NCBI RefSeq assembly: GCF_026241755.1
Contig: NZ_JAPJDA010000017.1
Location: 1-64,000 of the forward strand
DNA length: 64,000 nucleotides
Direction of reading: 5' to 3'
Source: Salinimicrobium profundisediminis
GTDB lineage: Bacteria; Bacteroidota; Bacteroidia; Flavobacteriales; Flavobacteriaceae
Under the pieces are notes generated by a model. It was not told where the DNA came from and searched no databases. It was given only the letters and a program-made list of their open reading frames with translations. The position numbers and the translations under genes are program-made. Shown here one piece after another: positions 7,177 to 54,510 of this stretch (the stretch's first letter is position 1; each line of letters starts with the position of its first letter).

Positions 7177-7199
7177 GTTCATAGTATTGAGATATTAAA

Positions 7200-7237
7200 T
7201 ATGAGAATTGAGATTTTTCTTCCTCTCAATTCTCATA
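7200..7237. repeat. perfect 14-bp inverted repeat in the rng-recX gap
   Basis: TATGAGAATTGAGA (7200-7213) is the exact reverse complement of TCTCAATTCTCATA (7224-7237), with a 10-base centre. It is surrounded by near-repeats of the words ATTGAGAT and CTCAATAC. It resembles the inverted repeats between atpD and atpC and between sdhA and sdhB in texture, though not in exact sequence. Confidence 0.75.
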
Positions 7238-7274
7238 TCTCAATACCAAATACTCAATACTAGATACTAAATTT

Positions 7275-7282
7275 TACCTTTG
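7275..7282 (+). promoter_or_regulatory. candidate -7 box for recX, near-leaderless
   Basis: TACCTTTG fits TAnnTTTG and ends five bases before the recX ATG (7288). If used, transcription would begin at or within a few bases of the start codon. Confidence 0.4.
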
Positions 7283-7287
7283 TTTGA

Positions 7288-19450: not shown

Positions 19451-19477
19451 AATTATCTAAATTACAAATTTCAAATC

Positions 19478-19511
19478 CCAAATTCCAAGAGCTTGTTCTT
19501 TTGGAATTTGG
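19478..19511. repeat. inverted repeat in the atpD-atpC gap
   Basis: CCAAATTCCAA (19478-19488) and TTGGAATTTGG (19501-19511) form a perfect 11-bp stem over a 12-base loop. The flanks are loose tandem repeats of CAAATTTCAAAT-like words. It separates two genes that should be cotranscribed. Confidence 0.75.
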
Positions 19512-19536
19512 AATTTGTGTATTGGGATTTCTCCGC

Positions 19537-45341: not shown

Positions 45342-45347
45342 ATTTTT

Positions 45348-45415
45348 AATTTGAAGATTTGAAGATTTGATGATGAGTTAATTTTCAAATTCCCTCATTT
45401 TCAAATTTTCAAATT
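45348..45415. repeat. inverted repeat between sdhA and sdhB
   Basis: AATTTGAAGATTTGAAGAT (45348-45366) faces ATTTTCAAATTTTCAAATT (45397-45415); the arms pair over 19 bases with two G-T-type changes. Each arm is itself a tandem of AATTTGAAG-like words. It reaches the sdhA stop codon. Confidence 0.72.
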
Positions 45416-52082: not shown

Positions 52083-52233
52083 GAAGAATTAAAAATTTTT
52101 TTCTTCAATTCTGAAAATGAAAAAGTTACACAAATAACCCGAAGAAATTAGAGAAGTTTGGCAAATAGCCGATGCCAATGCCCGAATTCTTTTTTCTGAT
52201 AGCATTTGCCATGGTAAAACCTATTGTTTGTAT

Positions 52234-52270: not shown

Positions 52271-52600
52271 ATGATAAAGGTAAGTGAAAACGCCAAAAAG
52301 AGAATAACCGCCCTTATGCAGGAAGATGGTTTTGATGCCATGCAGGATTTTGTTCGGGTGGGCGTGAAGAGCGGTGGATGTTCGGGCCTGTCCTATGATC
52401 TTAAATTCGATCATTCAAAGGCAGAAGGTGACAAGCTTTTTGAAGACAACGATATTAAAATTGTTGTCGATAAAAAGAGCGTGTTGTACCTGGCAGGAAC
52501 TATCCTTGAATATTCGGGCGGCCTCAACGGTAAAGGATTCGTATTCAACAATCCCAATGCCCAGCGCACTTGCGGATGTGGAGAATCATTCTCGCTGTAG
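52271..52600 (+). CDS. HesB/IscA (SufA-like) iron-sulfur assembly protein
   Basis: 109 residues from ATG 52271 (MIKVSENAKKRITALMQEDG). The longer in-frame start at 52172 would add a hydrophobic stretch not found in the family and lies before the promoter box. The three cluster-binding cysteines are present: GGCSGLSYDL (about 41) and TCGCGESF at the C-terminus (Cys-x-Cys). It is an A-type carrier that receives clusters from the SufBCD scaffold. It is the first gene of the suf operon. Confidence 0.95.
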   Translation: MIKVSENAKKRITALMQEDGFDAMQDFVRVGVKSGGCSGLSYDLKFDHSKAEGDKLFEDNDIKIVVDKKSVLYLAGTILEYSGGLNGKGFVFNNPNAQRTCGCGESFSL

Positions 52601-52631
52601 GTTCATAGTTCAAGGTTTAAAGTTTAAGGTT
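52601..52631. repeat. left inverted repeat of the four-helix-bundle cassette
   Basis: 31 bases starting immediately after the HesB/IscA stop codon. The reverse complement of 53026-53056 matches at 26 of 31 positions (one further pair would be G-U in RNA). It contains internal near-repeats of GTTTAAGGTT. Confidence 0.85.
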
Positions 52632-52632
52632 G

Positions 52633-53025
52633 ATGGGCACAGTAAAGAATTTTGAAGATCTGGAGATTTGGAAAAGTGCACGCGGTATATGCAATGACAT
52701 CTTTAAGATTAGATAAAATTCCGACCTGAAATCTGATTATAAACTTTACGACCAAATGAACGGCCCTTCAGGATCTGTTATGGATAATATTGCTGAAGGA
52801 TTTGAAAGGAATGGTAATAGGGAATTTATTCAATTTCTGGCCATAGCGAAAGCTTCTTGTGGAGAAACACGATCTCAATTACATCGTGCTCTTGACAGAA
52901 ATTACCTTCCCAAAGAGGAATTCGACCTCCTCTACACTAAATTGATTTTATTGAGCAAGCAGATAAGCTCTTTTATTAACTATCTGCAAAAAAGCGAATT
53001 AAAAGGAACAAAGTTCAAAGGGTAG
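52633..53025 (+). pseudogene. four-helix-bundle protein (23S rRNA intervening-sequence protein family), interrupted
   Basis: ATG 52633 begins MGTVKNFEDLEIWKSARG, a near-perfect match to the S23/IVP four-helix-bundle family (usually about 120-130 residues). TAA at 52714-52716 (codon 28) interrupts it, and the same register continues as [32 protein letters not shown], the family's conserved DNIAEGFER motif, to TAG at 53023. A CAA or similar codon changed to TAA would suffice. ATG 52756 could yield an 89-residue C-terminal part. The gene is bracketed by inverted repeats and lies inside the suf operon. Homologs are encoded by rRNA intervening sequences and, more distantly, are related to Avd of diversity-generating retroelements. 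Confidence 0.88.
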
Positions 53026-53056
53026 AACCTTGAACTTCAAACCTTAAACCAGGAAC
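53026..53056. repeat. right inverted repeat of the four-helix-bundle cassette
   Basis: 31 bases starting immediately after the four-helix-bundle stop codon and ending eight bases before the sufB ATG. It pairs with 52601-52631. Confidence 0.85.
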
Positions 53057-53064
53057 TCAGAAAG

Positions 53065-54510
53065 ATGGCATATACAGAAGATGATTTAAAAAAGGAGCTC
53101 GACAATAAAGAGTATAAGTACGGATTCTACACCGACATTGAATCTGAAACTTTTCCTGTGGGACTCAATGAAGACATTGTGCGGGCAATCTCCCTCAAAA
53201 AAAATGAGCCGGAATGGATGACCAACTGGCGCCTTGAAGCTTTTAGGGCCTGGCAGGAAATGATCGAGCCAGAATGGGCTAATGTGCATTATAAAAAACC
53301 CAACTTTCAGGACATTTCTTATTATTCTGCGCCTTCAAAAAAGCCAAAATATGACAGTCTTGATGAAGTTGACCCCGAATTGCTGGATACCTTTAAAAGG
53401 CTTGGAATCTCTCTTGATGAGCAGAAAAAACTTGCAGGGGTAGCAGTAGATGTGGTAATGGATTCTGTTTCTGTAACCACAACCTTCAAAAAAACACTGG
53501 CCGAAAAAGGGATCATATTTTGTTCTATAAGTGAAGCCATTCAGGAGCATCCCGAATTAGTGAAAAAATACCTTGGTACTGTAGTGCCTCAAAAAGACAA
53601 TTTCTATGCTGCATTGAATTCCGCAGTATTTAGTGATGGTTCTTTCTGTTATATTCCAAAAGGAGTGCGGTGCCCTATGGAATTGTCTACCTACTTCAGA
53701 ATAAACCAGGCCGGAACAGGGCAGTTTGAAAGAACTCTTGTGGTTGCCGATGAAGGTAGTTATGTGAGTTACCTGGAAGGTTGTACTGCGCCATCAAGGG
53801 ATGAGAATCAATTGCACGCTGCAGTTGTGGAGCTTATCGCTTTAGATGATGCCGAAATCAAGTACTCAACCGTGCAGAACTGGTATCCAGGGGATAAAGA
53901 AGGAAAAGGTGGAGTTTATAACTTCGTGACCAAACGCGGAATTTGTGAAAAGAACGCCAAGATAAGCTGGACGCAAGTAGAAACCGGATCGGCTGTGACA
54001 TGGAAATACCCAAGTTGTATACTGAAGGGAGATAATTCGGTAGGAGAATTCTACTCTATCGCGGTTACCAATGATTTTCAGCAGGCCGATACAGGAACTA
54101 AAATGATCCATATTGGAAAGAATACCAGGAGTACAATTATTTCTAAAGGGATCTCGGCCGGAAGAAGCCAGAACAGCTACCGCGGACTCGTGCAGATAAA
54201 CAGTAAGGCTGAAAATGCCCGAAACTTCTCTCAGTGTGACTCTTTGCTAATGGGGAATAAATGTGGAGCCCACACCTTTCCATATATTGAAGCGAAGAAC
54301 AAGACAGCAAAAGTTGAACACGAGGCTACCACCAGTAAAATAGGGGAAGACCAGATTTTCTACTGTAACCAGAGAGGAATTGATACCGAAAAAGCGATAG
54401 CCCTTATTGTAAACGGATTTAGCAAAGAAGTACTAAACAAACTTCCAATGGAATTTGCGGTTGAAGCTCAAAAATTACTGGAGATCTCCCTGGAAGGATC
54501 TGTAGGATAA
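53065..54510 (+). CDS. sufB: Fe-S cluster assembly protein SufB
   Basis: A 481-residue SufB, the scaffold partner of SufC and SufD. Conserved features are [21 protein letters not shown] near the N-terminus, the beta-helix core with [57 protein letters not shown], and a C-terminal [25 protein letters not shown] segment containing the cluster-site Cys. Length is standard (E. coli 495). The start ATG follows the inverted repeat of the cassette by eight bases. Confidence 0.97.

Follow-up and report, generated by a model that had tools for sequence, protein, structure and literature searches.

The gene lying between hesB and sufB in the window, by which we mean the whole 64-kb stretch of DNA that was analysed, is best explained as a copy, now decayed, of a widespread type of intercistronic S23 cassette. 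These cassettes resemble intervening sequences (IVSs), appear to be exchangeable, and encode a protein that would, as a ring, read the arms of its own cassette; we put the probability of this reading at about 0.55. The observations that carry it are the anatomy of the cassettes, a period of 7 in their flanks, a tendency of the two arms of a copy to match each other, co-direction with the operon, low dN/dS values and differences between close species that span the whole cassette.

The upstream neighbour in the window is a HesB/IscA-type gene (Fe-S_biosyn in Pfam; 52271–52600 on the plus strand, with the ORF listed from an earlier ATG at 52172), and its stop codon TAG at 52598–52600 is followed directly by the left arm of 31 bases (52601–52631). 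The S23 gene occupies positions 52633–53025 on the same strand with its stop at 53023–53025, the right arm begins at the next base (53026–53056) and stops 8 nt short of sufB, a co-directional gene at 53065–54510 whose product is a SufBD protein according to Pfam. These junctions, the two neighbours, the gene family and the inverted match of the arms at 26 of 31 positions are all as the first-pass annotation had described them, and the arms constitute the only inverted pair of 31-mers with at least 26 matches at a spacing of about 300–600 nt in the 64-kb window. The part of the gene downstream of an internal stop matches the S23 family PF05635 with 73.9 bits over 89 residues (Pfam cut-off 33.8) and NCBIfam TIGR02436 with 76 bits (cut-off 24), so that the fragment is above both curated cut-offs and belongs to both families, and the whole gene, with one TAA included, matches the S23 profile with 102.7 bits. 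Read from the ATG at 52633 the frame meets this TAA at codon 28 (52714–52716) and the ORF is therefore not intact, leaving only a truncated or re-initiated S23 product possible. Each arm is a tandem array of 4–5 degenerate heptads with the unit GTTYAAR, inverted in the right arm, rather than a unique terminal repeat; the left arm reads GTTCATA GTTCAAG GTTTAAA GTTTAAG GTT, and Tandem Repeats Finder reports it as 52599–52631 with a 14-nt unit. Profile searches found S23 as the only domain between the arms, with no transposase gene and no other enzyme for movement. No Rfam family matched at the gathering score anywhere in the window, and a known RNA family was rejected for the cassette on this ground.

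The genome to which the window belongs contains 15 PF05635 (S23) matches, and the 12 genomes of the genus together contain 119, spread over 11 of them and with internal stops in 15. Other S23 genes with flanking repeats, for which the first-pass annotation had proposed a search, are present in the genome and in the genus; when the 15 copies of the window genome were printed, short-period arrays were seen to flank most of them, with a unit that varies from copy to copy. The best self-match of the flanks at a lag of 7 has a mean of 20.9/28 for 119 S23 copies (118 from the genus and one from G028, including four edge-truncated duplicates, L046, L047, L049 and L058, with almost no right flank) as compared with 14.9 for 308 control ORFs taken from the same stretches, and a score of at least 22/28 is reached by 43% of the copies and by 8.4% of the controls, the loci of the genus being mutually related. 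Lags 4–6 and 9–12 are at background in the same 119 copies and lag 8 is slightly raised, and the lag-7 counts miss octamer versions of the arrays such as those of L001, L011, L203, L213, L221 and L383. After removal of the four truncated duplicates, 96 of 115 copies have an array of at least 19/28 on one side or more, 48 of them on both, and 19 have none at this level on either side.

The two arms of a copy tend to be related. In the 48 copies with two arrays, the left heptad and the inverted right one agree at 5.31 of 7 positions, as against 3.69 ± 0.13 when the pairings are shuffled, and the similarity of heptads climbs with the identity of the S23 proteins, whether the loci are the same or different. 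Four or five heptads are present in 177 of the 276 scored arms, with a scoring threshold that excludes very short arrays. Among 94 two-armed copies the arms are inverted in 59 and direct in 11, and 24 are without a clear arm match. With respect to both neighbours, 251 copies are divided into 191 +S+, 11 -S-, 12 +S-, 6 -S+ and 31 unclassified, and the S23 gene is thus co-directional with its neighbours in 191 of the 202 cases where these agree. Where it can be measured, the genes are under purifying selection with a median dN/dS of 0.075 (56 pairs). Two further types of repeat were seen in the set: very long alternating heptads, AGTTGTG AGTTCTC, reiterated many times in the upstream flanks of L115, L114 and L008, of which part of the L008 flank is given as N, and a dispersed repeat of about 35 nt at L119:5041-5076, which has dozens of matches, mostly in G010 and G011, and is unlike the heptad arms.

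At the suf site 40 genomes were searched and 30 loci were taken, two of them without HesB on the contig. The first-pass annotation had suggested looking for an empty site in close relatives, and such sites are found outside the genus, where 17 of 18 genomes with a measured gap have no cassette (16 gaps of 8–99 nt and one of 156 nt in G014 without an S23 gene; only G028 has an S23 cassette), but not within it, where the cassette is found in nine of the ten genomes with a measured gap, the window's own included, and is therefore a long-standing occupant of the suf site in the genus. The tenth, G003, has a gap of 116 nt that ends in an arm-like remnant. S23 is also found at the suf site in G067, and in Riemerella an S23 gene follows an iron-sulphur assembly gene and is itself followed by a sufB-like stretch that matches the window. 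In a midpoint-rooted tree of 159 S23 proteins, each with 85 residues or more, the twelve proteins from the suf site all group within a single clade of 19 members (support 0.953), and the suf site therefore has an S23 lineage of its own; the suf-site copies in this clade come from four lineages, and their seven clade relatives are located at two other loci. The empty HesB-sufB gaps are too diverged for a target-site duplication to be read.

Between the close species G005 and G007 the dS at suf is 0.17 for hesB and 0.21 for sufB while the synonymous sites of S23 are saturated, and in bins of 120 nt and more the flanks are 0.92–0.99 identical but the cassette only 0.69–0.71. Six loci are common to these two genomes, and three of them (c0, suf and c4) have this sharp divergence of the cassette with matching flanks; c2 and c5 show about the same identity in cassette and flanks, and c17 has a left flank that is itself different. 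The reverse pattern is found at c19 in G000 and G009, where the cassette is 0.97–0.99 identical with flanks of 0.75–0.96, apparently the result of one cassette transfer between close species. Whole-cassette differences at fixed junctions in these alignments point to exchange, and the swaps could be plain homologous recombination. The patchy suf gaps and these signs of exchange agree with the patchy distribution and horizontal transfer expected of rRNA IVSs. The mobile or excisable element of the first-pass annotation is thus upheld in part, by the pattern of whole-cassette exchange, but the copy in the window has a broken gene and is an old resident.

Outside the genus, PF05635 matches were found in 61 of 80 sampled Bacteroidota genomes, with the window's own included. 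By manual count, 40 of 44 loci have a flank on one side that scores at least 18/28 at lag 7 or 8; of these 44, 29 are from Bacteroidota genomes and 15 from plasmids (13 cyanobacterial; 15 of 29 plasmid records). S23 is located between cas6 and cas4 (twice) and between cas10 and cmr3, and one S23 gene lies in opposite direction between two ribonucleotide reductase genes. In a scan of named genomes, for which 80 of 452 confirmed stretches were kept and 78 of the 80 loci analysed, 46 of the 78 copies reach at least 20/28 at lag 7 and seven at lag 8, and none at lags 5, 6 or 9–11. When the two flanks of each of these 78 loci are compared as inverted repeats, their match score has a mean of 18.6, as compared with 11.7 for mismatched flanks, but single loci are often indecisive, since 26 of 78 are above the 95% point of mismatched flank pairs and five above the 99% point. 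The pooled set from outside the genus consists of best-scoring matches without a random draw and includes the Salinimicrobium loci L307 and L308; 134 of its 138 copies have flanks, and 77 of the 134 score at least 20/28 at lag 7 as against five of 54 control ORFs, with an arm match of 0.639 in 75 copies and of 0.447 ± 0.010 with shuffled pairings. The sampled loci belong to Bacteroidota, Cyanobacteriota, Balneolota and Chloroflexota, together with isolated loci under the labels of several other phyla, often from metagenome bins and possibly contaminated. In seven Anaerolineae contigs (L345, L353, L357, L364, L373, L374 and L376) the S23 cassettes are upstream of what seems to be one oxidoreductase-type gene, and in several of these contigs opposed arrays are present within the left flank itself. 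One genome paper (PMC5524665) assigns to a phage region an S23 gene that lies between those for guanylate kinase and a nicotinate-nucleotide adenylyltransferase.

The window also contains three hairpins of the same kind of array without a gene, and for each of them at most one of 200 shuffles folds as well. One is an octamer array at the sdhA/sdhB junction (45345–45414, minus strand; fold z -4.35), another is a heptad array flanked by recX and a gene of the RNase E/G family (7183–7283; z -6.99 / -7.13 on the two strands), and the last, also of heptads, lies between the ATP synthase beta-type and epsilon-type genes (19452–19519; z -4.25 / -5.08), where the S23 cassette c6 of relatives (e.g. L009), apparently in front of a gene that we take to be atpG, may be compared. 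The sdhA/sdhB junction holds a full S23 cassette in G005 and G011, and another on a Bacteroidales contig (junction loci L087 / L060 / L336), and the hairpin of the window matches the arms of the S23 cassette L011 in its own genome (P 0.00). The hairpins at 7183–7283 and 19452–19519 show no closer match to the arms of their own genome than to foreign arms (P 0.29 for both), and as just 11 of 19 orphan arrays fit same-genome arms above foreign arms, three of them with P 0.00, a general derivation of orphan arrays from S23 cassettes was rejected. Thirteen intergenic heptad arrays were found in 400 kb of G009, one of them beside an S23 gene. Lag-7 arrays were absent from 4 x 100 kb of four S23-free genomes and also from four of nine S23-positive samples, and heptads were for this reason discarded as a marker of S23-bearing genomes, the association being suggestive at most. 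In one place, G009:C1:375515-375925 (in L201), multi-unit heptad arrays are located inside a 455-aa ORF adjoining an S23 gene.

Insertion sequences and MITEs share with the cassettes a gene with inverted ends and the occurrence of hairpins without a gene at comparable junctions, but the cassettes differ from them in having ends that vary between copies and no transposase between the arms; the same terminal repeats in all copies, as expected of an insertion sequence, are not found, the arm unit being variable. PF05635 resembles the Avd protein of diversity-generating retroelements, as described in PMC10053308, but such an element was rejected for the cassette in the absence of a reverse-transcriptase partner nearby: the single reverse-transcriptase match of the genome is on contig C44 and the window on C10, and this match is closest to a group II maturase model, just under the cut-off of that model.

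The closest known counterpart is the helix-45 IVS in the 23S rRNA of Coxiella burnetii (PMC4990558). In that IVS tandem GACAGAT heptads, varying in number between strains, are located just before the S23 ORF, and the RNase III site falls at the first heptad. Like the cassettes it is part of a host transcript, with its S23 ORF in sense direction and immediately preceded by heptads; its ends are complementary, its distribution is patchy, its ORF is decaying and it is thought to be horizontally acquired, and it is these heptads that tie the rRNA intervening sequences to the operon cassettes. The cassettes differ from it by lying between two protein genes and by having heptads on both sides with a unit that differs from copy to copy. 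The cassette of the window is outside the 16S and 23S rRNA, between hesB and sufB, and is an IVS-like variant that by location is no member of the rRNA IVS class. Heptamer direct repeats, TAACTGA, occur in Beggiatoaceae, Cyanobacteria and Bacteroidetes (PMC4679880), and to the extent covered by the accessible text they are intergenic and often adjoin start codons like the cassette arms, with phyla in common, but are not described as paired around a gene. The author suspected transfer of the heptamers and gave no mechanism in that text, and the terms S23, intervening and four helix are absent from its main text. In the open-licence literature searched no description of operon S23 cassettes with heptad arms was found, and among the papers examined PMC4990558 alone places heptads beside S23.

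The first-pass annotation had proposed that the arms fold into a stem with the gene as its loop, and in the predicted fold this is so, but the evidence does not support pairing as a selected feature. In the minimum free energy fold of the window transcript the arms close the whole cassette (z -1.82, 5 of 100 shuffles as good), so that complementary ends of the kind known from rRNA IVSs are present, matching at 26 of 31 positions and unique at that spacing in the window. In 110 copies drawn at random from the eligible ones there is a mean of 25.9 arm-arm pairs in the predicted fold, as compared with 14.2 when the right flank is swapped, and the duplex of a copy's own arms has an energy of -44.2 kcal/mol against -32.2 for swapped partners, with 76 of 242 beating all of about 20. 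Together with the co-direction in 191 of 202 cases, this would agree with an mRNA intervening sequence proper, in which the RNA stem is selected and cut by RNase III and the S23 loop is removed, rendering the insertion harmless. Such an explanation appears unlikely to us, because the covariation at the suf arms, which the first-pass annotation had named as a check, is within the range of shuffles (71 of 500 as high), the mismatches on the sense strand comprise 226 G.U and 270 A.C (158 of 251 copies; ratio 0.84, bootstrap 0.71–0.99) and thus no G.U excess, the arms are direct rather than inverted in 11 of the 70 copies where they match, and coding windows 1 kb away, not matched for G+C, have an equal duplex energy of -46.2. 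Selection for an RNA stem is accordingly not favoured. All the evidence on RNA pairing, for and against, has the heptad in common, and the proposal that we prefer is recognition of the arms by the ring with exchange at the DNA level.

Heptads might also be a product of polymerase slippage that is common in these genomes, with S23 genes merely preferring such gaps; orphan arrays do exist, and an over-representation of heptamers is found in many bacteria (PMC4692102 and PMC4679880). This we consider improbable, as it leaves unexplained both why the two arms of a copy match and mostly face opposite ways and the link of the heptad to protein identity, and no lag-7 array was found in the S23-free genomes, with the S23-positive samples that likewise have none weakening this last point. 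Little credence is also given to a domesticated regulatory module, in which S23 with its arms would be retained at particular junctions for tuning the expression of the downstream gene. The low dN/dS, the single clade of suf-site copies from four lineages, and the recurrence at the hesB/sufB and sdhA/sdhB junctions and before a recurrent downstream neighbour that is presumably a fadA-type gene would fit such a module, but the patchy presence, the stops in 15 of 119 genus matches and the loss in G003 with an arm-like remnant speak against it.

In the decayed-cassette reading that we prefer, each cassette is a small four-helix-bundle gene framed by arrays of mostly 4–5 heptads with a copy-specific unit, and would be a selfish element, or one useful under certain conditions, transcribed along with the host operon. 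The S23 ring is predicted to bind the arms of its own cassette with about one heptad per subunit, which would tie the protein to its arms. The closest relatives with solved structures, 2GSC and 2RLD, have five chains each, and a Xanthomonas S23 structure is described as a homopentamer in PMC4990558; five-chained relatives and arms of mostly 4–5 heptads favour own-arm recognition by the ring. The cassettes would spread to the same junction in other strains, by a homing-like process or by ordinary homologous exchange via the flanking genes. The arms may also pair in mRNA as in rRNA IVSs, where RNase III could trim the cassette out, and the copy in the window would be at the end of this life cycle with its protein broken and its arms kept. 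More tentatively, and with the odds in our view somewhat against it, all S23 cassettes might be one pan-bacterial class of element that includes the rRNA IVSs, whose ring reads the arrays, homes and leaves hairpins behind. Equally tentative is the picture that belongs to it, of a unit homing into operon junctions with a pentameric ring and two arms that are kept alike.

Annotations call S23 proteins four helix bundle protein or ribosomal S23 and assign them no function, and in the sampled loci the heptad arms now supply a testable partner sequence for each of them. The link between gene and arms also joins two separate puzzles, the rRNA intervening sequences and the intergenic heptamer arrays. 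The S23 cassette is a real, widespread and under-described element, and exchangeable elements of this class seem to have been overlooked in operons including suf, sdh, atp and cas.
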